In this document: positions 12,129 to 21,934 of the stretch, in pieces
Position numbering within the stretch: the stretch's first letter is position 1
Layout of the letters: every line of letters starts with the position of its first letter
Position numbers and translations under genes: made by a program
Origin: a virus
IMG/VR virus record: IMGVR_UViG_3300017771_000136
Location: 1 to 21,934 of that record
Direction: 5' to 3' (one strand)
Length of the DNA stretch: 21,934 bases
The notes under the pieces: model-generated
Told to the model about the DNA's origin: nothing
Seen by the model: the letters and a program-made list of their open reading frames with translations, nothing else
The model's database searches: none

Positions 12129-12306
12129 TAACTTCATAACCCATCTTGTTTAACACTTTATTGAAATTAGACAAGGTGGGTTGTCGTTGTTTAGCTTCCC
12201 ACGTGTACACTGTAATCAAACTTACGCCTGTGTCTTCCGATACGTCTTTTTGAGACAGCCCCGATTGTTTTCGTAGTTCTTTGAATTCTTGAATTAAATC
12301 AGCCAT
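12082..12306 (-). CDS. Small XRE (Cro/CI) family DNA-binding protein, 74 aa
   Basis: The HTH is at about residues 16-37 (GLSQKDVSEDTGVSLITVYT) and fits the XRE pattern with SQ at the start of helix 2 and TVYTWE in the recognition region. I choose ATG 12306 with GGAAAAA close upstream; a TTG nine bases further upstream (12315) is possible. The start lies inside the 3' end of the helicase gene, so the two are co-transcribed and probably coupled. The last 15 codons overlap the end of the lysozyme gene, tail to tail. It most likely regulates phage transcription, possibly of its own divergent promoter region. Length and single domain resemble Cro-like or antitoxin-like regulators; no toxin partner is seen. 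Confidence 0.75.
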   Translation of the reverse strand: MADLIQEFKELRKQSGLSQKDVSEDTGVSLITVYTWEAKQRQPTLSNFNKVLNKMGYEVTIQPLASVEQDVQHG

Positions 12307-13742
12307 TTTTTCCAATCTTCTTCTAATACCTGTGTTGCGATGTTAATCTTCTTCCGAAGTGCACCGACTATTTTTTCGTCTACCGTTTTTTGCGCGATTA
12401 AGTCGATGTATGTAACCGCATTAGATTGACCGATTCTGTGCGCACGATCTTCTGATTGTAACCTTACTTCAAGATCATAGCTGTTACTATAATATATTAC
12501 TGTTGATGCAGCGGTTAAAGTCAAACCGTACCCACCTGTGCGAGGTTGTCCAACAAAAAAGCGTAGTTCTTCGTCCTCTTGGAAACGATCTACAATATTT
12601 TGTCTTTCTTCGCCATCAGTGTCGCCAAAATAAGTAGCAACAGATCTTGGTCCATAAACTTTCGATATTTCGTTTTTGATAGCCAGGATATCGTGTCGAT
12701 AGTTAGCCCAAATAATAGCTTTCCCGTTTAGTTCTTCTAAGATCGCAAGTAATTCGGACATGCGATTGTTTTTAATTTCAACCACATTACCGTCATCCGT
12801 ATTAATAAAACCACAACTAATTTGATGTAAACGCAATAGTTGAGTAATAACTGCATTAGCTGTAACCATTTCCATGTCGTCTAACAAAGTTACAGCGGTC
12901 TTTTTCATTTGGTCGTACAGGTTCTTTTGTTCTGAAGTTAGCTCTATCGTTCGCATTGTATAAGTTTTTTCAGGTAGGTCGAGACACTCTTCTTTCGTAA
13001 CGCGGTACGAGTGCGGCTTTATTGATTCAGTAAGTTCGTCAAGATTTCTAAAACCAAGTATCTGATTATATTGATGACCACCTCCAGACGCACTACGTTT
13101 TATCATGTCTGCGTAACGAGCGCAAAAAGCATAATACGACTTAAAGCCTAATAATTCTTCTCCTAAAAATTGAAACTGCGAAAACAAATCAAGTGGTGTT
13201 TTTGTAATGGGAGACCCTGTAAGGATTCGTTTATATTTACACCGCTTAGACAACCTCATTGCCGCCTTGCTTCTTCGAGCTTTGTGGTTCTTTATAACTG
13301 TAGATTCATCAATAGCAATAAGAGTCGAACCGCCGTGTGCCGCAATAAATTTAGTCGCGACTTCTTCTGCTTTGCCTGTGGATAAGGCTTCAATATTCAT
13401 TACAAAAATATGCAAGTATTTATTTGGTCGCCAAATATCGCGGATAGCGTCTTTATGTTTATTGGTTAACGGCGAAGCCCAATACGCAACTTTATGTTCA
13501 ATGCTGTCTGGCAAGTGTGCTGGTATTTCTTTACCGACCCAGTTTTTATAAACACCCTTTGGAGCAAGGATTAAAACAGAATTAATTTCATCAGTTGCGT
13601 CAAGATACGCGATCGTATCAATAAGAACTTTTGATTTACCCGTTCCCATATCCATAAGAAGCGCAAACGATTTCTTCAGGTAAGAAATCTCTAATGCTTT
13701 TAGCTGGTGCTTATATGGTTTGGTCTTAAATTTAAAATTCAT
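12294..13742 (-). CDS. SNF2-type (SF2) DNA helicase/translocase, 482 aa
   Basis: All main helicase motifs are visible: motif I MDMGTGKS (residues 30-37), motif II DEST (145-148), motif III LTGSPI (174-179), and motif VI SEDRAHRIGQ (430-439), preceded by GGYGLTLTAAS (motif V). The Q-H-R-IGQ context is diagnostic for the SNF2/Rad54 branch, which moves along double-stranded DNA without unwinding in most members. It is in line with the length of compact phage SNF2 proteins. It may help replication, recombination or displacement of bound proteins. AGGGG lies 6 nt before the start (minus strand). It is the first gene of a two-gene minus-strand operon; its 3' end overlaps the XRE gene. Confidence 0.85.
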   Translation of the reverse strand: MNFKFKTKPYKHQLKALEISYLKKSFALLMDMGTGKSKVLIDTIAYLDATDEINSVLILAPKGVYKNWVGKEIPAHLPDSIEHKVAYWASPLTNKHKDAIRDIWRPNKYLHIFVMNIEALSTGKAEEVATKFIAAHGGSTLIAIDESTVIKNHKARRSKAAMRLSKRCKYKRILTGSPITKTPLDLFSQFQFLGEELLGFKSYYAFCARYADMIKRSASGGGHQYNQILGFRNLDELTESIKPHSYRVTKEECLDLPEKTYTMRTIELTSEQKNLYDQMKKTAVTLLDDMEMVTANAVITQLLRLHQISCGFINTDDGNVVEIKNNRMSELLAILEELNGKAIIWANYRHDILAIKNEISKVYGPRSVATYFGDTDGEERQNIVDRFQEDEELRFFVGQPRTGGYGLTLTAASTVIYYSNSYDLEVRLQSEDRAHRIGQSNAVTYIDLIAQKTVDEKIVGALRKKINIATQVLEEDWKKWLI

Positions 13743-13815: not shown

Positions 13816-14406
13816 ATGGGCCAATACTCTCTTTCCGAGAAAATATATAATACGCGAATGGCAGGACGCATAAGGCGTTTGCACATTCGTCCTGTGAACG
13901 GAGAAGAGCAAAATGTAGCCGCCCACACTTGGGGGCTGTCTATGATCCTCTTAGACTTATTTCCAGATATATCAAAGGACGGTTTAGTGTTTGCGCTTCG
14001 CCATGATATTCCTGAAGTTGTTACAGGTGATATACCTGCTAATGTAAAGTGGGCTAATCCGGATCTAGAAAAAGCTCTTGAGGAGCGTGAAAAAAGTTTT
14101 TTGAAAGATATGGGTTGGAAATCTGAACACGGGGGAGTCCCCTCTTGGGGGCGTGAAAATCTTTATATAAAAATAGCAGATCGTATCGAGCTTTTGTTTT
14201 ATTGCTTAGAACAAATGTACATGGGCAACTGGCTCTTGGCTGACGTTTACATAAACATACGGGATAAAATCGCTGTGGATATTGAAGTTTTGGAAAAGAA
14301 GGTACGGGCTAATGTTATCCGCTATATCGACGCCTATAATGAATATCTAGCAGATAATTTTTCTCAAAAGGCGATTTCACCCCGCGACGGCTTATCGTTC
14401 TCATAA
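13816..14406 (+). CDS. HD-domain phosphohydrolase, YfbR-like 5'-deoxynucleotidase, 196 aa
   Basis: The metal-binding set is visible: His37 in AAHTWG, the His63-Asp64 pair and Glu67 in FALRHDIPEVVTGDIPANVK (residues 59-78), and a further Asp in IADRIELL. The HDxxEVxTGDxPxxVK pattern is that of the YfbR/YGK1 group, which hydrolyses deoxyribonucleoside 5'-monophosphates. AGAAAGGATAGAG gives a strong ribosome site (AAGGA 8-9 nt before the ATG). It is the first plus-strand gene of the replication module, divergent from the helicase. In a phage that may replace thymine, the role could be removal of dTMP or control of the dNMP pool; the substrate cannot be read from sequence. Confidence 0.75.
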   Translation: MGQYSLSEKIYNTRMAGRIRRLHIRPVNGEEQNVAAHTWGLSMILLDLFPDISKDGLVFALRHDIPEVVTGDIPANVKWANPDLEKALEEREKSFLKDMGWKSEHGGVPSWGRENLYIKIADRIELLFYCLEQMYMGNWLLADVYINIRDKIAVDIEVLEKKVRANVIRYIDAYNEYLADNFSQKAISPRDGLSFS

Positions 14407-16319: not shown

Positions 16320-17858
16320 ATGAGTACCCTTGCCCAAAATTTTGCTCAGTTATTTGCTGGTTTAAGACTAGCTTATGGTTGTTATCGCCCAAATGAAGAT
16401 AACGGTCCAGGAAAACAAAAAGGTCAATATCGAGTTATATCGGAAGATATAAGCGATGAAAAATTAATAGAATTATGGACTAATCATTTAGAGGGAAAAG
16501 AGTCGGTTGGCATTGTTCCTATTCGTGAGGATAATTCTTGCGTATGGGGGGCAATAGATATTGATGTTTACCCCTTAAAACTTGATGAACTTGTTGAACG
16601 GTTAGTTCGACGAAATGAGTTACCTTTTGTTGTTGCTCGCTCTAAATCGGGCGGAGCACATGTTTATTGTTTTGTAAAAGAGCCAGTACCCGCTTCTGTT
16701 ATGCAGGGTAAGTTAAAAGAAATAGCATCAGCTCTTGGTTATGGAACAGCTGAGATATTTCCAAAGCAAACGAAGCTCCTCTTAGAAAAAGGGGATCGCG
16801 GTAATATTTTAAATATGCCGTACTTCGGTGGTAATACATCGACAAGGTATTGTCATAACGACCAAGGCGAAGGCATCTTAGATTTAGAAGAATTTATAGC
16901 TCACGTTAAGAGTAAAATGATTACTCGACGAGAGTTAGAAAATTTAACAGCTAAAGCTGTTAACGACGCTGAGACTGATCCAGATCTTGAAGGTGCACCA
17001 CCTTGTTTAAAAGCTCTTTGTACAATGGGCTTTCCAGAAGGTACTCGTAATAATGGGCTGTTTGATCTAGGGGTTTTTGTTCGTAAAAAGTTCCAGGATA
17101 CATGGGAACGTAAGGTTGAAGAATTTAACTTCAAGTTTATGAAACCCCCGTTAGGTGCGCAAGAAGTCTTAACAGTTATCCGCGCTCTAAATAATAAGGA
17201 TTATCACTACAAATGTAATGATCAGCCTATAGCCGCGTTTTGTAACTCTGCTGTTTGTCGAACATGTGAGTATGGTGTAGGTAGTTCAGGCGGTATGCCT
17301 CAGTTTGGTAATCTTCAAAAACAGGATTCTCAACCTCCGATCTGGTTTCTTGATGTTGAGGGTCATCGTTTAGAATTAACTACAGAGGAATTACAAAATC
17401 AAACCAAGTTCCAACGGCGTTGTATGGATGCGCTTAATTTTATGCCACCAACGCAAAGGCAGAATAATTGGAGAAATATAATACAGCAGTTATTGGACGC
17501 TGTTTCTGTAATTGAGGTTCCAAAAGACGTTTCAGTAGAAGGCCAGTTTATGGAACTACTAGAAGCGTTTTGCACTGAACGAGCGCAAGCTCAAAGCCGC
17601 GATGAATTATTATTGGGTAAACCTTGGACAGAAGAGGGTAAAACTCATTTCCGTTTGAAAGATTTATTAGATTATTTTAGTCGCCAGCAGTTTCGTGATT
17701 ACGGTCGTAATAATATAGCGGCACGGATTCGTGAGCTAGGCGGGGGCCACCATTTCTTTCACGTAAAAGGCAAGGGCGTTACTGTTTGGTATATACCAGA
17801 GTTTTCTGCACAAGAAGGAAGTTTTGATTTACCGGATATGAAAGAGGAGCCTTTTTGA
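16320..17858 (+). CDS. Archaeo-eukaryotic-type (TOTE-type) primase, 512 aa
   Basis: The N-terminal domain has the AEP catalytic pattern: Asp80 and Asp82 in WGAIDIDVY, SKSGGAHVY with His114 (108-116), and EIFPKQ with Glu145 (145-150). This layout fits the AEP domain that NCBI/Pfam call TOTE conflict system primase. A second region (LKALCTMGFPEGTRNNGLFD, about 228-247) resembles a PriCT-type domain, and Cys299, Cys308, Cys313 and Cys316 could bind zinc. The C-terminal part is helical and basic, then ends in the acidic PDMKEEPF. It makes primers or acts as a primase-polymerase for phage replication. AGAAAGGATAAAG provides the ribosome site. The stop overlaps the helicase ATG (TGATG). Confidence 0.8.
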   Translation: MSTLAQNFAQLFAGLRLAYGCYRPNEDNGPGKQKGQYRVISEDISDEKLIELWTNHLEGKESVGIVPIREDNSCVWGAIDIDVYPLKLDELVERLVRRNELPFVVARSKSGGAHVYCFVKEPVPASVMQGKLKEIASALGYGTAEIFPKQTKLLLEKGDRGNILNMPYFGGNTSTRYCHNDQGEGILDLEEFIAHVKSKMITRRELENLTAKAVNDAETDPDLEGAPPCLKALCTMGFPEGTRNNGLFDLGVFVRKKFQDTWERKVEEFNFKFMKPPLGAQEVLTVIRALNNKDYHYKCNDQPIAAFCNSAVCRTCEYGVGSSGGMPQFGNLQKQDSQPPIWFLDVEGHRLELTTEELQNQTKFQRRCMDALNFMPPTQRQNNWRNIIQQLLDAVSVIEVPKDVSVEGQFMELLEAFCTERAQAQSRDELLLGKPWTEEGKTHFRLKDLLDYFSRQQFRDYGRNNIAARIRELGGGHHFFHVKGKGVTVWYIPEFSAQEGSFDLPDMKEEPF

Positions 17859-19360
17859 TGAGAGACTCAAGCACGTGGTCTATTATCCTTGGCCCTCCTG
17901 GAACAGGCAAAACGACAACAATTCTGAATTTAATTGAACTAGAAATGGAGCGAGGTACACACCCTGACCGCATAGGTTATTTCGCATTTACTAAAAAAGC
18001 ATCAGAAGAAGGGCGCGAAAGGACTATGGAGCGTTTTGGTCTAACTCAAAAAGAGTTGCCTAATTTCCGAACGCTTCATTCTTTATGCCACCGTATGTTA
18101 GGTTTGTCCAGAAGCTCTGTCTTAAATGGACAAACACTTCATGAGTTTAACGATCTGATGGGTTTACGGCTTACAGGTTCTAATAAACTTGAGGAAGGTG
18201 CAATATCTCTTTTATCGAAAGACGACCGCCTGAGTTTTATTGAAGGTTTATCCCGATTACGCTGTGTGCCTTTACGACAACAGTGGCACGATCATTATGA
18301 TGAAGATATCGACTGGTTTGCGTTAGAACGATTTCAAAAAGGGTTAAAGCAGTTTAAAGATTCAAGGGGCTTACATGATTTTACAGATATGTTAGATCTG
18401 TGTGTTCAAAAACAGTTGTCCCCTAAATTAGATGTTATGTTTGTAGATGAGGCGCAAGATCTCAGCCCTCTACAATGGCGTCTAGTAGAATTGTTGGCAG
18501 AGAACTCTCAACGTGTCTATATTGCCGGAGATGACGATCAAGCTATTTTTAGATGGGCAGGGGCAGATGTAGATCATCTGGTAGGGATAAGCAAAGGTAA
18601 CGCTCGTGTCTTGGATCAAAGTTACCGCATCCCTCGCAGTGTTCATCGGGTAGCTGACAGCATTATACGCCGTGTTAAGACACGAACAGATAAAACTTGG
18701 AACCCTCGGCATGAGGAAGGACAGGTTATCAGCGAAGCAAGTTTCGAGCATGTGGACCTATCTACGGGTGAATGGTTAATCTTATCGCGGTCTAATTATT
18801 TATTAAATGAGATTGATGCCCATTGTAGAAATCTTGGGGTATATTTCGAGCGTAAAGGCGACCCTTCTATCTCTGATAAAAAGGTTGCCTCTGTTCAAGC
18901 TTGGGAGCGATTAAGACGTGGCGATCTTGCATACCCAGAAGACGCATTATCAGCTGTTGCGTATATTAAGAGCGCGAAGAAGAAGGTTTTTGACACTTTC
19001 GAGCCAACGCAGAGGTTCACGCTTTCGCAAGTCTTAGAAATAGCAGAGTTAAGCGAACCAAAGATATGGCACGATATGTTCGATGCTATATCAGTTCAAG
19101 AGCGCAGTTATATTCTTTCTATTTTACGTCGCGGCGAAAAAATCACTAAGAAGCCTCGTATAAATCTCTCTACAATACATTCAGCCAAGGGTGGGGAGGC
19201 AGACAACGTTTTACTCCTTACTGATATTCCTCACCGTACATGGAAAAGTTTTGAAAAAAATCCTGACGACGACACCCGCGTCTTTTATGTTGGCCTTACT
19301 AGAGCAAAGAAAAACTTGCATATCGTACAGCCGATGAGCAATAAATATTTCCCGATATAG
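17858..19360 (+). CDS. UvrD/Rep-like SF1A DNA helicase, 500 aa
   Basis: I take ATG 17858, overlapping the primase stop by one base, rather than the TTG one codon upstream. The motifs are complete: GPPGTGKT (residues 12-19), FVDEAQD (about 195-201), GDDDQAIFRWAGA (motif III), LDQSYRIPRSVH (motif IV), STIHSAKGGEADNV (motif V) and VFYVGLTRAKKNL (motif VI, about residues 473-485). This is a 3'-5' helicase family; at 500 aa it is shorter than host UvrD (about 720) and lacks large inserts. Coupled with an AEP primase it could act as the replicative or repair helicase of the phage. Direction and role are known for the family and not shown here. Confidence 0.88.
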   Translation: MRDSSTWSIILGPPGTGKTTTILNLIELEMERGTHPDRIGYFAFTKKASEEGRERTMERFGLTQKELPNFRTLHSLCHRMLGLSRSSVLNGQTLHEFNDLMGLRLTGSNKLEEGAISLLSKDDRLSFIEGLSRLRCVPLRQQWHDHYDEDIDWFALERFQKGLKQFKDSRGLHDFTDMLDLCVQKQLSPKLDVMFVDEAQDLSPLQWRLVELLAENSQRVYIAGDDDQAIFRWAGADVDHLVGISKGNARVLDQSYRIPRSVHRVADSIIRRVKTRTDKTWNPRHEEGQVISEASFEHVDLSTGEWLILSRSNYLLNEIDAHCRNLGVYFERKGDPSISDKKVASVQAWERLRRGDLAYPEDALSAVAYIKSAKKKVFDTFEPTQRFTLSQVLEIAELSEPKIWHDMFDAISVQERSYILSILRRGEKITKKPRINLSTIHSAKGGEADNVLLLTDIPHRTWKSFEKNPDDDTRVFYVGLTRAKKNLHIVQPMSNKYFPI

Positions 19361-19428
19361 ATTATTTTGAGCTTTATCTGCCACTATATCTAGTCTAAAC
19401 TCTTTAGAAAGTAGGACTGGAGGTTGAA

Positions 19429-19839
19429 ATGGGCGGCTGGATTCAAACATCGTCAGACGGATGGATGTGGTCTCCTGATCATGACTTTGGTGAGCAAAAA
19501 ACGTGGCCTCGTAATAAATGGCCTTCTGAATATCACAAAGGAAAGAAGATAATGGAACCTGAAGTTATCGCGGAAGTAAAAAAAGCTGAAGCGGGTCGTA
19601 GCCTTACGGGTCGTTTAAAAGTCGGCGCGAAGATCGAGTTTGTTAAGTATCCAGATAAAGGTCCAAAACAGATGCTTCATATTTTAGAGGAGCTAGAAGT
19701 GTTTGAAGGCGGGATTACTATCGGTATGTTTTGGGAAAAGCTTGAAGGAAAGCTCGTGTCTAAACAGTCTGTAGATCGCGTTTATAAACACTATCATCGT
19801 GAGATGGTCGACAAAGGATACATTCGTATTCTTAGCTAG
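19429..19839 (+). CDS. Uncharacterised protein with possible winged-helix C-terminus, 136 aa
   Basis: TGGAGG (19417-19422), 6 nt before ATG 19429, supports this start; an internal ATG at 19551 with GGAAAG upstream is an alternative that would remove an odd Trp-rich N-terminus (GGWIQTSSDGWMWSPDHD). The C-terminal half has a helix (GPKQMLHILEELEVFEGG), then ITIGMFWEKLEGKLVSKQSV and VYKHYHREMVDKGYIRIL, a helix-helix-helix-strand order that would fit a winged-helix DNA-binding fold. I do not recognise the family. The 68-bp gap before it has no clear promoter. It lies between the helicase and the modification genes, so a regulatory or DNA-binding role is possible. Confidence 0.55.
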   Translation: MGGWIQTSSDGWMWSPDHDFGEQKTWPRNKWPSEYHKGKKIMEPEVIAEVKKAEAGRSLTGRLKVGAKIEFVKYPDKGPKQMLHILEELEVFEGGITIGMFWEKLEGKLVSKQSVDRVYKHYHREMVDKGYIRILS

Positions 19840-19851
19840 TCTCACCGATGC

Positions 19852-19942
19852 GGGGGAAGTTGGCTTGTGCCGTATGGGAAAAGCGTTCCTTGCCAGTTTG
19901 GTTAATACATCAAGTACCTGAGCCTTAGTGTTAGCTTCCCCC
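19852..19942 (+). promoter_or_regulatory. Possible structured leader of the methyltransferase gene
   Basis: The 127-bp gap after the preceding gene holds GGGGGAAG (19852-19859) and CTTCCCCC (19935-19942), a perfect 8-bp closing stem around 75 bases. Inside are GGCTT (19862-19866), which can pair with GAGCC (19920-19924), and GGAA/TTCC around AAGCG (about 19878-19890). AGGAG (19956-19960), 6 nt before ATG 19967, is outside the stem. This looks like a folded leader or small RNA; no known riboswitch was recognised. Confidence 0.4.
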
Positions 19943-19966
19943 ACCCAGTTTTATTAGGAGAAATAA

Positions 19967-20806
19967 ATGGCATCTATTCGTCGTAAACTCGCGGTAAACG
20001 CGAATAATTCTAAGAACACCCGTATGGACATTGCTTCAGCGGGTACGCTGGCTAACTGGCGACCTGATGAGCTGGCGCACATCAGTCGTTTTTGTAAAAT
20101 GGGTCAGCTGATTATGGAACGTGCTAAAAAACTTGATCGACCTGTAGATATACTTGAAATAGGTTGCGGGGAAGTTTGGACATTGCGCTATCTCTATAAA
20201 GCCTTTGTCTCTCGTAAGGCTGAGATTGTTAATAGCTATACGGGTATGGATATTGATCCTGCTTGTTTAGAAGATTGGTGGGTGGACGACGATTTACCCG
20301 TTACAGAACATAAATGGTTTCAAACTATGTCAGGTAATAAAGGTCGTATCGTTTTACAGGACTTAACTATTGATCCTGAGCCCCCCATAGAAGACGAGTC
20401 GATAGATGTTTTTATGACAACTGAAGTTATTGAACACATGGGGAGAGAGTTTATTGAGCCATGGATCGAAGCCGCCGCACGTAAAATCCGTTCAAACGGC
20501 ATTGCGTATGTCTCGACGCCGAACCACGATGGGTCTAACGACATTCTGCCAAAAGACCACATCTACGAATGGGGGTATGAAGAACTCAAAGAACTCCTCG
20601 AAAAGTATTTCGTTATCGAAAAACATTACGGAACGTTTACCCAAATGAATAACTTTAAGGGTAATCACCGCGCTAATTTACGTTGGCCTCAACACGTTAT
20701 TGATGATATCGAGGGACGGTTTGATAAACATTGGCAACGTGTAATCCTCGCAACTGCGTATCCAGAAACAGCTAATAATGTAAACTGGATTATGAGGAAG
20801 AAGTAA
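19967..20806 (+). CDS. Class I SAM-dependent methyltransferase, 279 aa
   Basis: Motif I is ILEIGCGEVWTLRYLY (62-77), motif II YTGMDIDPA (91-99) and motif IV/post-IV IDVFMTTEVIEHMG (146-159), then NGIAYVSTPNHDG (177-189), which is the methyltransferase type 11/12 pattern of small-molecule and nucleotide-sugar methyltransferases rather than a DNA-base N6/C5 enzyme: neither DPPY nor PC motifs are present. A basic N-terminus (ASIRRKLAVNANN) precedes the fold, and a C-terminal extension has FTQMNNFKGNHRANLRWP. It overlaps the next gene by one base (TAATG), so it is probably part of the thymine modification pathway and could methylate a modified base or a side chain. The substrate is unknown. Confidence 0.75.
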   Translation: MASIRRKLAVNANNSKNTRMDIASAGTLANWRPDELAHISRFCKMGQLIMERAKKLDRPVDILEIGCGEVWTLRYLYKAFVSRKAEIVNSYTGMDIDPACLEDWWVDDDLPVTEHKWFQTMSGNKGRIVLQDLTIDPEPPIEDESIDVFMTTEVIEHMGREFIEPWIEAAARKIRSNGIAYVSTPNHDGSNDILPKDHIYEWGYEELKELLEKYFVIEKHYGTFTQMNNFKGNHRANLRWPQHVIDDIEGRFDKHWQRVILATAYPETANNVNWIMRKK

Positions 20807-21633
20807 TGGAACCAATAGAAAGGTTCTTTTGGTGGATGGAGGAGAGGCATCGTATTTTTCTAAAGAAGAATATGGGCCTCTCCCGCCAGCAGTGGACAGA
20901 TGATGAGATTTTAAAGACCTATCGCTTTACTAATCCCTTTAGAGAGAACGACAAGACCACCGTTTGGTTTAGGGAAAATATGCGCGACCCTTTGAAAGAT
21001 AACGATGCTGTTCTTATGGCAACTGTTATTTTTCGTTGGTTTAATCTTATCCAAACAGGTGAAACTCTTCTCGCTAATAATTTACATATAGATTGGAACC
21101 CAGAGGTTGCTCGGGAAGAAATCAAAAAGCAATCTAAATATGTAACGGGTGGGTACATAATTAAAACTCCTGACGGGATGGATAAAGTCGATGGGGTGAT
21201 TTGGTGCGTAAACCGTATCTGGCCCCAACGCGAACAACTCGCCAATGATATCCGTTCGAACAACCTCCGTGGTTCTTGGAACTTGTTTATGCAATTTCCG
21301 TACCTAGGAGCGTTTATGTCATATGAATTAATTACTGATTTACGTCATACACATTTATTGCATTCAGCCGATGATATTTATACTTGGGCTAATGCTGGTC
21401 CTGGAGCCATGCGAGGCTTGAACCGTATACACGGTAGACCCCTGAACTTTAAAAGTCGTAAACATAATTTTAATTCAGAAATGAGAGACTTATTAAGTAT
21501 GTCTCCCTTGCATTTAACAAAAGATTTTTTGCCTAAATTAGAAATGCGGGATATCGAACATAGTCTTTGCGAGTTTGATAAATACGAACGAGTGCGTAAC
21601 GGAGAAGGCGCACCACGAGGGAGATATCCATGA
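20806..21633 (+). CDS. Alpha-glutamyl/putrescinyl-thymine pyrophosphorylase (HMUDK_hel) family protein, 275 aa
   Basis: Several family signatures are visible: EERHRIFLKKNMG (12-24), WTDDEILKTYRFTNPFRE (30-47), VWFRENMRDP (53-62), GPGAMRGLNRIHGRP (198-212) and HSLCEFDKYERVRNGEG (252-268). In the literature on hypermodified phage DNA (Iyer and Aravind; Lee, Weigele and colleagues) such helix-rich, DNA-glycosylase-like proteins are linked to 5-hydroxymethyl-dU that has been pyrophosphorylated or phosphorylated and then receives an amino acid or polyamine. I see no Walker A motif, so despite the family name of one group (5-hmdU DNA kinase helical domain) this protein is not itself a P-loop kinase. 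It is coupled to the methyltransferase (1-nt overlap) and to the thymidylate-synthase-like gene (4-nt overlap). Confidence 0.8.
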   Translation: MEPIERFFWWMEERHRIFLKKNMGLSRQQWTDDEILKTYRFTNPFRENDKTTVWFRENMRDPLKDNDAVLMATVIFRWFNLIQTGETLLANNLHIDWNPEVAREEIKKQSKYVTGGYIIKTPDGMDKVDGVIWCVNRIWPQREQLANDIRSNNLRGSWNLFMQFPYLGAFMSYELITDLRHTHLLHSADDIYTWANAGPGAMRGLNRIHGRPLNFKSRKHNFNSEMRDLLSMSPLHLTKDFLPKLEMRDIEHSLCEFDKYERVRNGEGAPRGRYP

Positions 21634-21934
21634 AAGTAATACGCGGTGTAAATGTCAACGAGGTATTTCAAGTAGCTGTTATGAACTTGCGAGAAGACCA
21701 AGCTCTTTTAGAGACAGACTCCCGCAATGGTCCTGTGTTGTCGTTTCCGACACCACTTACGACTATTTACGAAAGACCGAATGAGCGTGTTCTGTTTAGT
21801 GCGGAACGTAACTGTAACCCCTTCTTTCATTTTATCGAAGGGCTGTGGATGATCGCGGGTCGGCAAGATCTAAAAACGCTAACGATGTTCGCTAAGAAGA
21901 TGGCGGACTTTTCGGATGATGGTGTTTTAGTAAA
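21630..21934 (+). CDS. Thymidylate synthase-family protein, N-terminal part (cut by window end)
   Basis: ATG 21630 overlaps the preceding stop (ATGA); 101 codons are present before the sequence ends. The start MKVIRGVNVNEVF, then SRNGPVLSFPTPLTTIYERP, ERNCNPFFHFIEGLWMIAGR and KKMADFSDDG is the N-terminal pattern of a phage thymidylate synthase-like group that also contains dUMP and dCMP hydroxymethylases. These enzymes transfer a C1 unit from methylene-tetrahydrofolate to C5 of dUMP or dCMP. The catalytic Cys and the residues that separate methylation from hydroxymethylation lie beyond the window. Given the pyrophosphorylase-family gene just upstream, dUMP hydroxymethylase is the favoured reading. 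Confidence 0.8.
   Translation, partial: MKVIRGVNVNEVFQVAVMNLREDQALLETDSRNGPVLSFPTPLTTIYERPNERVLFSAERNCNPFFHFIEGLWMIAGRQDLKTLTMFAKKMADFSDDGVLV

Follow-up and report, generated by a model that had tools for sequence, protein, structure and literature searches.

Which enzyme completes the modified thymine of a phage whose modification genes stand beside a methyltransferase, with neither the activating kinase nor the amino acid transferase of better-known systems found near them? This question is raised by three adjoining genes at the 3' end of the IMG/VR virus record IMGVR_UViG_3300017771_000136, which was analyzed over its whole length of 21,934 bases and is referred to below as the window. All three lie on the plus strand and encode a class I S-adenosylmethionine (SAM) methyltransferase of 279 amino acids (MT; 19967..20806), an HMUDK_hel family protein of 275 amino acids (HEL; 20806..21633), and the 5' part of a thymidylate synthase (TS)-like gene, a predicted dUMP hydroxymethylase (TS; 21630..21934), which the record end truncates, leaving 101 open codons. 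The reading we favor, and hold with about even confidence, is that in this marine-phage cassette TS makes 5-hydroxymethyl-2'-deoxyuridine (5-hmdU), which HEL exposes in DNA and MT then converts to 5-methoxymethyl-dU by O-methylation.

A preliminary description of this DNA had reported three overlapping genes with overlaps of 1 nt and 4 nt, and both the open reading frames (ORFs) and the sequence agree: read directly, MT and HEL meet in a 1-nt stop/start overlap, TAATG (20804..20808, plus strand), from which their translational coupling is likely, and HEL and TS share the 4-nt start/stop overlap ATGA (21630..21633, plus strand). By eye, a purine-rich, Shine-Dalgarno-like stretch lies 5' of each of the three starts, the one before MT being AGGAGA, 5 nt 5' of the start codon (19956..19961, plus strand). 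The description's SAM methyltransferase is recovered by Pfam Methyltransf_23 (E 2.5e-9; 37.5 bits against a cut-off of 27), and its start of a TS-family enzyme by phrog_5131 (E 2.5e-32), with no Pfam match above cut-off for the 101-codon fragment. For the 275-residue protein it had offered two family labels. That of HMUDK_hel, the helical 5-hmdU-kinase family, holds, with PF18723 matching over the whole domain (residues 5-266; E 4.2e-42; 144.9 bits against a cut-off of 25) and phrog_2396 at E 9.6e-57, while the pyrophosphorylase label is imprecise, PF18724, the family of the amino acid:DNA transferase (ADDT), giving no match; aG/PT-PPlase1 is nevertheless the name given to a protein of related phages (PMC9599517). 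All the family matches reported here lie far above chance.

In all 74 distinct triples, that is, loci holding all three genes (loci cut before HEL or TS are uncounted), MT, HEL and TS stand in a single order on a single strand. When the most upstream HEL start is used, MT and HEL overlap or are separated by at most 10 nt in 67 of the 74, and HEL and TS in 41. The tight MT-HEL spacing suggests that these two proteins act jointly. When the window is compared with nine of its relatives, MT proves better conserved than HEL in eight comparisons (the other being a tie) and better conserved than TS in seven, TS being higher in two; its ratio of nonsynonymous to synonymous substitution (dN/dS) is 0.027-0.077 in seven of nine comparisons, the other two being saturated. 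MT is thus under purifying selection.

The preliminary description had placed an activating P-loop kinase elsewhere in the genome, a supposition that the longer contigs of this lineage do not bear out. Neither a profile of 26 related P-loop kinases nor one of 17 ADDTs found a match in any of 22 related MT contigs of 49-68 kb, which are not proven complete, or in four kinase-free control contigs of other HEL classes, whereas both matched all four positive controls (Pseudomonas phage M6, Ab18, Epa5 and the contig G038), the kinase profile at E 1.6e-57 or better with their own rows included. In a leave-out test, in which each row was removed from its profile together with all rows more than 50% identical to it, the kinase profile still recovered 26 of 26 (worst E 6.3e-24) and the ADDT profile 17 of 17 (worst 2e-36). 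Taken together, PF18748, PF13671 and the 26-row kinase profile found nothing over cut-off in the MT contigs, the one weak sub-cut-off kinase match (in G018) lying inside a UvrD-like helicase. An earlier survey of 24 records with the curated Pfam models, which do not depend on the rows of these profiles, gave the same picture: PF18748 and PF18724 each matched four of them at E <=1, namely three reference phages and G017, with two of these over cut-off for PF18748 and all four for PF18724; M6 gp54 matches HMUDK_HMUD1. For TAGT glycosyltransferases, the count over cut-off was 0 of 22 MT contigs against two of two glycosyltransferase controls, apart from one weak match in a 71-residue frame of G023; other glycosyltransferase types were sought in the fetched loci only. 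With no kinase and no ADDT found in the 22 MT contigs, activation of the base followed by addition of a side chain is not a necessary assumption, and the enzyme most likely to complete the modification is MT.

A census of the genes around HEL places this arrangement among several. After HEL proteins with the same last 200 residues had been merged, 138 distinct ones remained, and 98 of these had 5 kb or more of sequence on either side; clusters drawn from these loci supplied the family profiles, and every ORF was placed in its best family. The partner of HEL was MT in 53 loci, a recognized glycosyltransferase without kinase in 21 (13 TAGT and 8 of group 1 type), a P-loop kinase in 18 (13 with ADDT and 2 with a protein of cluster c60), and something else in six (a c64 protein in four, only an FkbM methyltransferase in one, and none in one), these class sizes not being frequencies, as similarity to the HEL and MT of the window decided which loci were fetched. 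ADDT never occurred without kinase in the 98 loci, and no kinase, ADDT, glycosyltransferase or c64 gene lay within 6 kb in any of the 53 MT loci. A TS gene stood within 6 kb in 92 of the 98. In a tree of 96 HEL rows, made by a quick method and with long branches, some of which meet, partner changes among MT, glycosyltransferase and kinase number at least eight without the c64 rows and nine with them, and MT alone needs two changes. Pfam types among representative partners comprise TAGT, FkbM, Glycos_transf_1, a cytidylyltransferase with a mannose-isomerase-like cupin, SPASM radical SAM, ADDT and a DAO oxidoreductase. Both the c60 and c64 proteins look glycosyltransferase-like by eye, with no match in Pfam or PHROG and, for c64, no solved relative; c64 was accordingly not accepted as a glycosyltransferase, and its four loci were kept out of that class. 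A TET-associated glycosyltransferase (TAGT) with HEL and no kinase was found at L078:10843-11619, at L081 and in 11 other HEL loci, and the L078 protein matches PF20691 (E 8.6e-24) and the phrog of beta-glucosyl-HMC-alpha-glucosyltransferase (E 3.2e-50), which suggests that such loci specify a glycosylated 5-hmdU made without phosphorylation.

The same loci offered several separate observations. In L034 (10831-12706), the HEL-TS slot holds a fused cytidylyltransferase-cupin (mannose-isomerase-like) adjoining a c64 protein, as if this phage made its own activated sugar for DNA, and in L038 (10896-13230) an FkbM methyltransferase and a group 1 glycosyltransferase stand between HEL and TS, possibly placing a methylated sugar on 5-hmdU. 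HEL also occurs in 18 loci (L231-L248) on contigs of bacterial or archaeal metagenome-assembled genomes, several with kinase and ADDT, which are probably phage sequence binned with hosts. P-loop 5-hmdU kinases or candidates at L119:7393-7956, L149:7333-7995 and L118:7414-7983 are labelled 'terminase small subunit' in public records.

Despite the exchange of partners, 37 HEL residues are the same in at least 90% of each class (51 MT rows, 25 glycosyltransferase rows including c64, and 18 kinase rows), so a single function of HEL appears to serve the different chemistries of the kinase, glycosyltransferase and MT systems. The AlphaFold2 model of HEL, built on a 54-row alignment, has a mean predicted local distance difference test (pLDDT) score of 95. 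With VIA-align, it reached Z 11.2 to the 8-oxoguanine glycosylase MjOgg (3knt; 185 residues, 4.4 A) and Z 11.0 to PaMx11 gp46/PUGT (8z2n; 219 residues, 3.8 A), followed by many glycosylases of HhH type and DUF2419 queuosine-salvage enzymes (Z 6.3 to 10.6) and then a fall to 3.4, values to be read against the Z of up to about 13 that mostly helical models can reach without kinship. Foldseek placed Methanocaldococcus and Thermotoga 8-oxoguanine glycosylases at the top (E 0.14 to 0.41) and also listed PaMx11 gp46/PUGT (E 0.45 to 0.68), a glycinyltransferase that we take to be linked to ADDT. The possibility that HEL is itself an ADDT was rejected, as it matches neither PF18724 nor the ADDT profiles (hhalign probability 3%); for the same reason, only a similar, helical fold is claimed between HEL and ADDT-type enzymes such as PaMx11 gp46/PUGT. 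A search of solved structures by sequence returned no template for HEL. The natural reading of the model, which looks HhH-GPD-like, is that HEL would be a base-flipping protein with a fold related to a known transferase.

What HEL would present depends on TS. A longer, near-identical copy of the window, IMGVR_UViG_3300022074_000048 (G001; 56,087 bp), has 725 of 731 30-mers in common with it, and the full-length TS of the near-identical contig (347 amino acids; L002:10825-11868) is followed by a small gene and DNA polymerase. This TS shares 46% identity with its M6 counterpart and 19% with Escherichia coli ThyA. Where E. coli ThyA has Asn177, it too has Asn, as do the enzymes of M6, Ab18, SPO1 (gp29) and a ViI-like phage, while T4 gp42 dCMP hydroxymethylase and the enzymes of Stenotrophomonas phage AXL3, Pseudoxanthomonas phage PW916 and ctUtU524 have Asp. 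We take Asn here to mark a dUMP and Asp a dCMP substrate; because of the Asn at this pyrimidine-selecting position, the TS of the window lineage is called a predicted dUMP-type hydroxymethylase. A dUMP-type TS-like enzyme and a PF18723 HEL, which in M6 lie near a DNA polymerase, are also what the window has in common with M6/ViI-type loci. The M6 set comprises ADDT, a PALP enzyme, radical SAM, P-loop kinase, HEL, Nmad5 and TS; in the window lineage, by contrast, kinase and ADDT were not found in the contigs searched and MT is present instead.

The residues of MT point to the chemistry it would perform. In a set of 25 sequences, consisting of the window MT and 24 others 48-92% identical to it, E153-V-I-E156-H157-M, T184-P185-N186 (preceded in the window by S183) and D197-H198-x-Y-E-W are invariant; across eight diverse homologues, AXL3-type ones included, E153, E156, H157 and H198 are invariant, as is the SAM motif I GCGE, and fold matches identify a class I methyltransferase. 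At motif IV, every one of the 25 has TEVIEHM, not the PC that serves as the alternative motif IV of DNA methyltransferases. Neither is it the (D/N/S)PP(Y/F/W) of canonical N6, N4 or C5 DNA methyltransferases (PMC1397878). Matched by eye, the ExxEH, TPN and second His of MT correspond to the metal ligands E796, E799, H800 and H860 of HEN1 (PMC10781085) and to the TPN of its motif VI, TPNXE(F/Y)N (PMC1397878); a His among the HEN1 ligands is described as related to UbiG and COQ3 (PMC9774615). An automatic alignment of the AXL3 MT with 4xcx agrees at ELIEH and STP and slides near the second His. The MT model (pLDDT 74) superposes on HEN1 (3htx) with Z 15.9 (2.9 A, 189 residues, 19% identity), and a sequence search of solved structures gave no clear template, the best match being a generic methyltransferase at 4.3e-6. 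Of the UbiG and Hen1 family models (TIGR01983 and TIGR04074), the first gives the window MT 15.7 bits against a cut-off of 102.95 and the second does not match it; the AXL3 MT has sub-threshold matches to both (4.6e-8 and 7.6e-7; Hen1 28 against 340 bits). With the UbiG score far under cut-off and Hen1 unmatched, we name MT Hen1/UbiG-like, and not a Hen1. It resembles the Hen1/UbiG-COQ3 O-methyltransferases in these positions and in fold, and differs from them in its family scores and in its presumed substrate; by this likeness, it would catalyze a metal-dependent O-methylation.

A second setting of the same enzyme narrows down that substrate. Searched against 50,697 phage records, the window MT had four matches at E <=0.01 (two AXL3 records, PW916 and ctUtU524), with 27-30% identity, the best at about 30% over 218 residues (E 4e-9); the MT profile scores the AXL3 protein at E 1.5e-19. 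Downstream of MT in AXL3 come an NTP pyrophosphohydrolase (NTP-PPase), a kinase-like gene, a TS-like enzyme and a dCMP deaminase, and the cassettes of PW916 and ctUtU524 resemble it as far as annotated. Among 25 AXL3-type loci (these three phages and 22 viral-contig loci, near-copies included), a TS-like gene with the Asp motif is present in 24, the 25th ending before it; NTP-PPase, kinase-like gene or deaminase were not found in some. At E 1e-3, HEL, HEL-type kinase, ADDT and TAGT were each found in 0 of the 25, and none of the three AXL3-type records, taken whole, has a PF18723 match. The AXL3-type cassette thus has in common with the window lineage a homologous MT adjoining a TS-like hydroxymethylase, and differs in its dCMP-type Asp enzyme, its NTP-PPase and kinase-like gene, and its lack of HEL. 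Of 37 restriction enzymes, only two, both with A/T-only sites, are reported to cut AXL3 DNA, and all 35 with G or C in their sites were resisted (PMC7504290), a pattern that fits a modified cytosine (or guanine). As one MT family stands beside a predicted maker of 5-hmdU and a predicted maker of 5-hmdC, the substrate element in common would be the 5-hydroxymethyl group, which points to this group as what MT acts on.

These observations can be combined into a route. The TS-like enzyme would convert dUMP to 5-hydroxymethyl-dUMP, which would end as 5-hmdU in phage DNA; HEL, as the constant part of systems in which the chemical partner is swapped, would recognize and probably flip this base; and MT would methylate the exposed hydroxymethyl group with the help of a metal held by E153, E156, H157 and H198, giving 5-methoxymethyl-2'-deoxyuridine. 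Such a methyl ether would keep host enzymes that attack 5-hydroxymethyluracil (5-hmU), or add sugars to it, from reaching the hydroxyl, and the route would be simpler than the kinase-and-amino-acid route of other phages. The preliminary description's view that the phage probably carries a hypermodified thymine, and its idea of a methylation of a new kind, are in our judgment right. In the literature searched (titles and the beginnings of abstracts), we found no report of methoxymethyl pyrimidines in phage DNA.

Several points weigh against this route. The AXL3-type MT stands without HEL, so that some enzymes of the MT type do not require HEL. Because the contigs without kinase are classed as linear and their completeness is unproven, the absence of kinase and ADDT from them is strong evidence but not proof. 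On the side of MT, the family scores are low or absent, HEN1 is tied by fold with many class I methyltransferases (Z 15.9 against a best of 16.9), and the metal-site loop is in part poorly modelled (188-194, pLDDT below 50). On the side of HEL, the glycosylase likeness is weak by Foldseek, which returned nothing at E <=1e-3 (best E 0.14), and the ADDT profiles failed to match; moreover, N43 and H252, which are constant where the partner is a kinase and are retained by the window HEL, are changed in 31 (to Gln) and 32 (to Gly) of 51 MT rows, respectively, and may mark kinase-specific contacts. We found no biochemical work on this MT, or on HEL in systems that lack the kinase.

The chief rival, which we consider unlikely, moves the methylation ahead of polymerization: MT would act on 5-hmdUMP or 5-hmdUTP (5-hmdCMP in AXL3-type phages), and HEL would be a separate guard bound to 5-hmU, or to what is made of it, in DNA, for example as a shield against the base-excision repair of the host. 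It gains from the company of the AXL3-type MT, which includes NTP-PPase, a thymidylate-kinase-like gene, hydroxymethylase and deaminase and no HEL, from the many small-molecule enzymes among the fold neighbors of MT, and from a nearby YfbR-like nucleotidase that fits pool control; it leaves unaccounted for the close spacing of MT and HEL in 67 of 74 triples and the retention of the same 37 HEL residues with kinase, glycosyltransferase or MT as partner. The known 5-HMU kinase, moreover, works on 5-hmU in DNA (PMC6457204). We regard as quite improbable a classical route, the version of the preliminary description, in which a divergent or host kinase would activate 5-hmdU, another transferase would add a side chain, and MT would methylate that side chain. 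The very name of HEL derives from the 5-hmdU kinase, it adjoins a P-loop kinase in M6 and Ab18, and divergent kinases do exist, the Ab18 kinase scoring only E 0.0061 to PF18748; still, the kinase profile, which recovered 26 of 26 in the leave-out test, and the ADDT profile both find 0 of 22 MT contigs, and AXL3, too, is without HEL and ADDT.

It is very unlikely, in our estimate, that MT has nothing to do with DNA modification and acts on a host metabolite, RNA or protein, with TS as an ordinary thymidylate synthase. Its motif IV is indeed small-molecule-like (EVIEH) rather than of the DNA-methyltransferase form, but the unvarying arrangement of MT, HEL and TS in 74 of 74 triples, the second group of phages in which a homologous MT adjoins a hydroxymethylase-like gene, and the much closer identity of TS to the M6 enzyme than to ThyA all argue for a role in base modification. 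Least probable of all, in our view, is a CmoB-like MT that would place on the 5-hydroxymethyl group a different moiety derived from SAM, for instance the carboxymethyl of carboxy-SAM. The AXL3 MT does weakly match the tRNA mo5U34 methyltransferase 4p7c (E 0.0051), which we take to be CmoB; on the other hand, no CmoA-like gene appears among the best 25 of 36 Pfam families of G001 (68 ORFs), and the Hen1-type ligands are invariant in MT. Carboxymethylation of phage DNA does exist, by CmoX (PMC12783734).

If methylation of 5-hmdU in DNA by MT is correct, O-methylation would join phosphorylation and the amino-acid, polyamine and sugar chemistries of thymine hypermodification, in marine phages, and the role of HEL would be separable from that of the kinase. 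A wider generalization, which we put forward tentatively and consider less probable than the route itself, is that HEL is an exchangeable 5-hmU-presenting subunit, combined in different phages with a kinase, a glycosyltransferase or, as here, an O-methyltransferase, and that 5-methoxymethyl-dU in marine phages and 5-methoxymethyl-dC in AXL3-type phages form a class of natural bases, methyl ethers of 5-hydroxymethyl-pyrimidines, made by one MT family in two gene settings. Methyl-ether bases could serve as DNA caps that resist glycosylation and restriction.

By its polymerase, this lineage is probably related to HTVC023P-type pelagiphages. The closest DNA polymerases to that of G001, one ORF of which matches DNA_pol_A, are those of phage 023Pt_psg01 (54%), Pelagibacter phage HTVC023P (51%), phage DSL-LC04 (50%) and Pelagibacter phage HTVC027P (48%). 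HTVC023P-type pelagiphages of several clades are described as carrying TS and aG/PT-PPlase1 near PolA, as here, and the main text of that report contains no occurrence of the word methyltransferase (PMC9599517). Neither HEL nor MT was found in the whole records of HTVC023P, 023Pt_psg01 and DSL-LC04 (0 of 3 each; G001 was positive for both), the absence of TS from these three being judged by the annotation around the polymerase only. The interval between helicase and polymerase holds two small genes in HTVC023P and 023Pt_psg01 and none in DSL-LC04, so the cassette fills a slot that is empty in some related phages. Between the loci L009 and L002, MT and HEL are 99% identical and TS 74%, a drop between HEL and TS that looks like a recombination border.

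On the left, this variable slot is bordered in the window by a UvrD-like helicase (17855..19360, plus strand; Pfam UvrD-helicase, E 7.1e-32), which also lies 5' of the slot in many relatives. Between it and MT stands a gene for a 136-residue protein (19429..19839, plus strand; cluster c12), kept in part of the MT lineage and without a match in Pfam or PHROG. Promoter and terminator predictions across 17800-21934 were no better than the level of shuffled sequence. Farther upstream, the HD-domain YfbR-like 5'-deoxynucleotidase (13816..14406, plus strand; Pfam YfbR-like, E 3.2e-12; NCBIfam 5'-deoxynucleotidase, E 9.2e-7, under its cut-off) is a possible nucleotide-pool enzyme and is found near the locus in part of the MT lineage only. 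An SNF2-type helicase (12294-13742) lies on the minus strand, opposite to most window genes, and has a similar place in many relatives, and the product of the gene at 16320-17858 is a primase whose AEP domain is that known from TOTE conflict systems (PF22548, E 1.2e-13).

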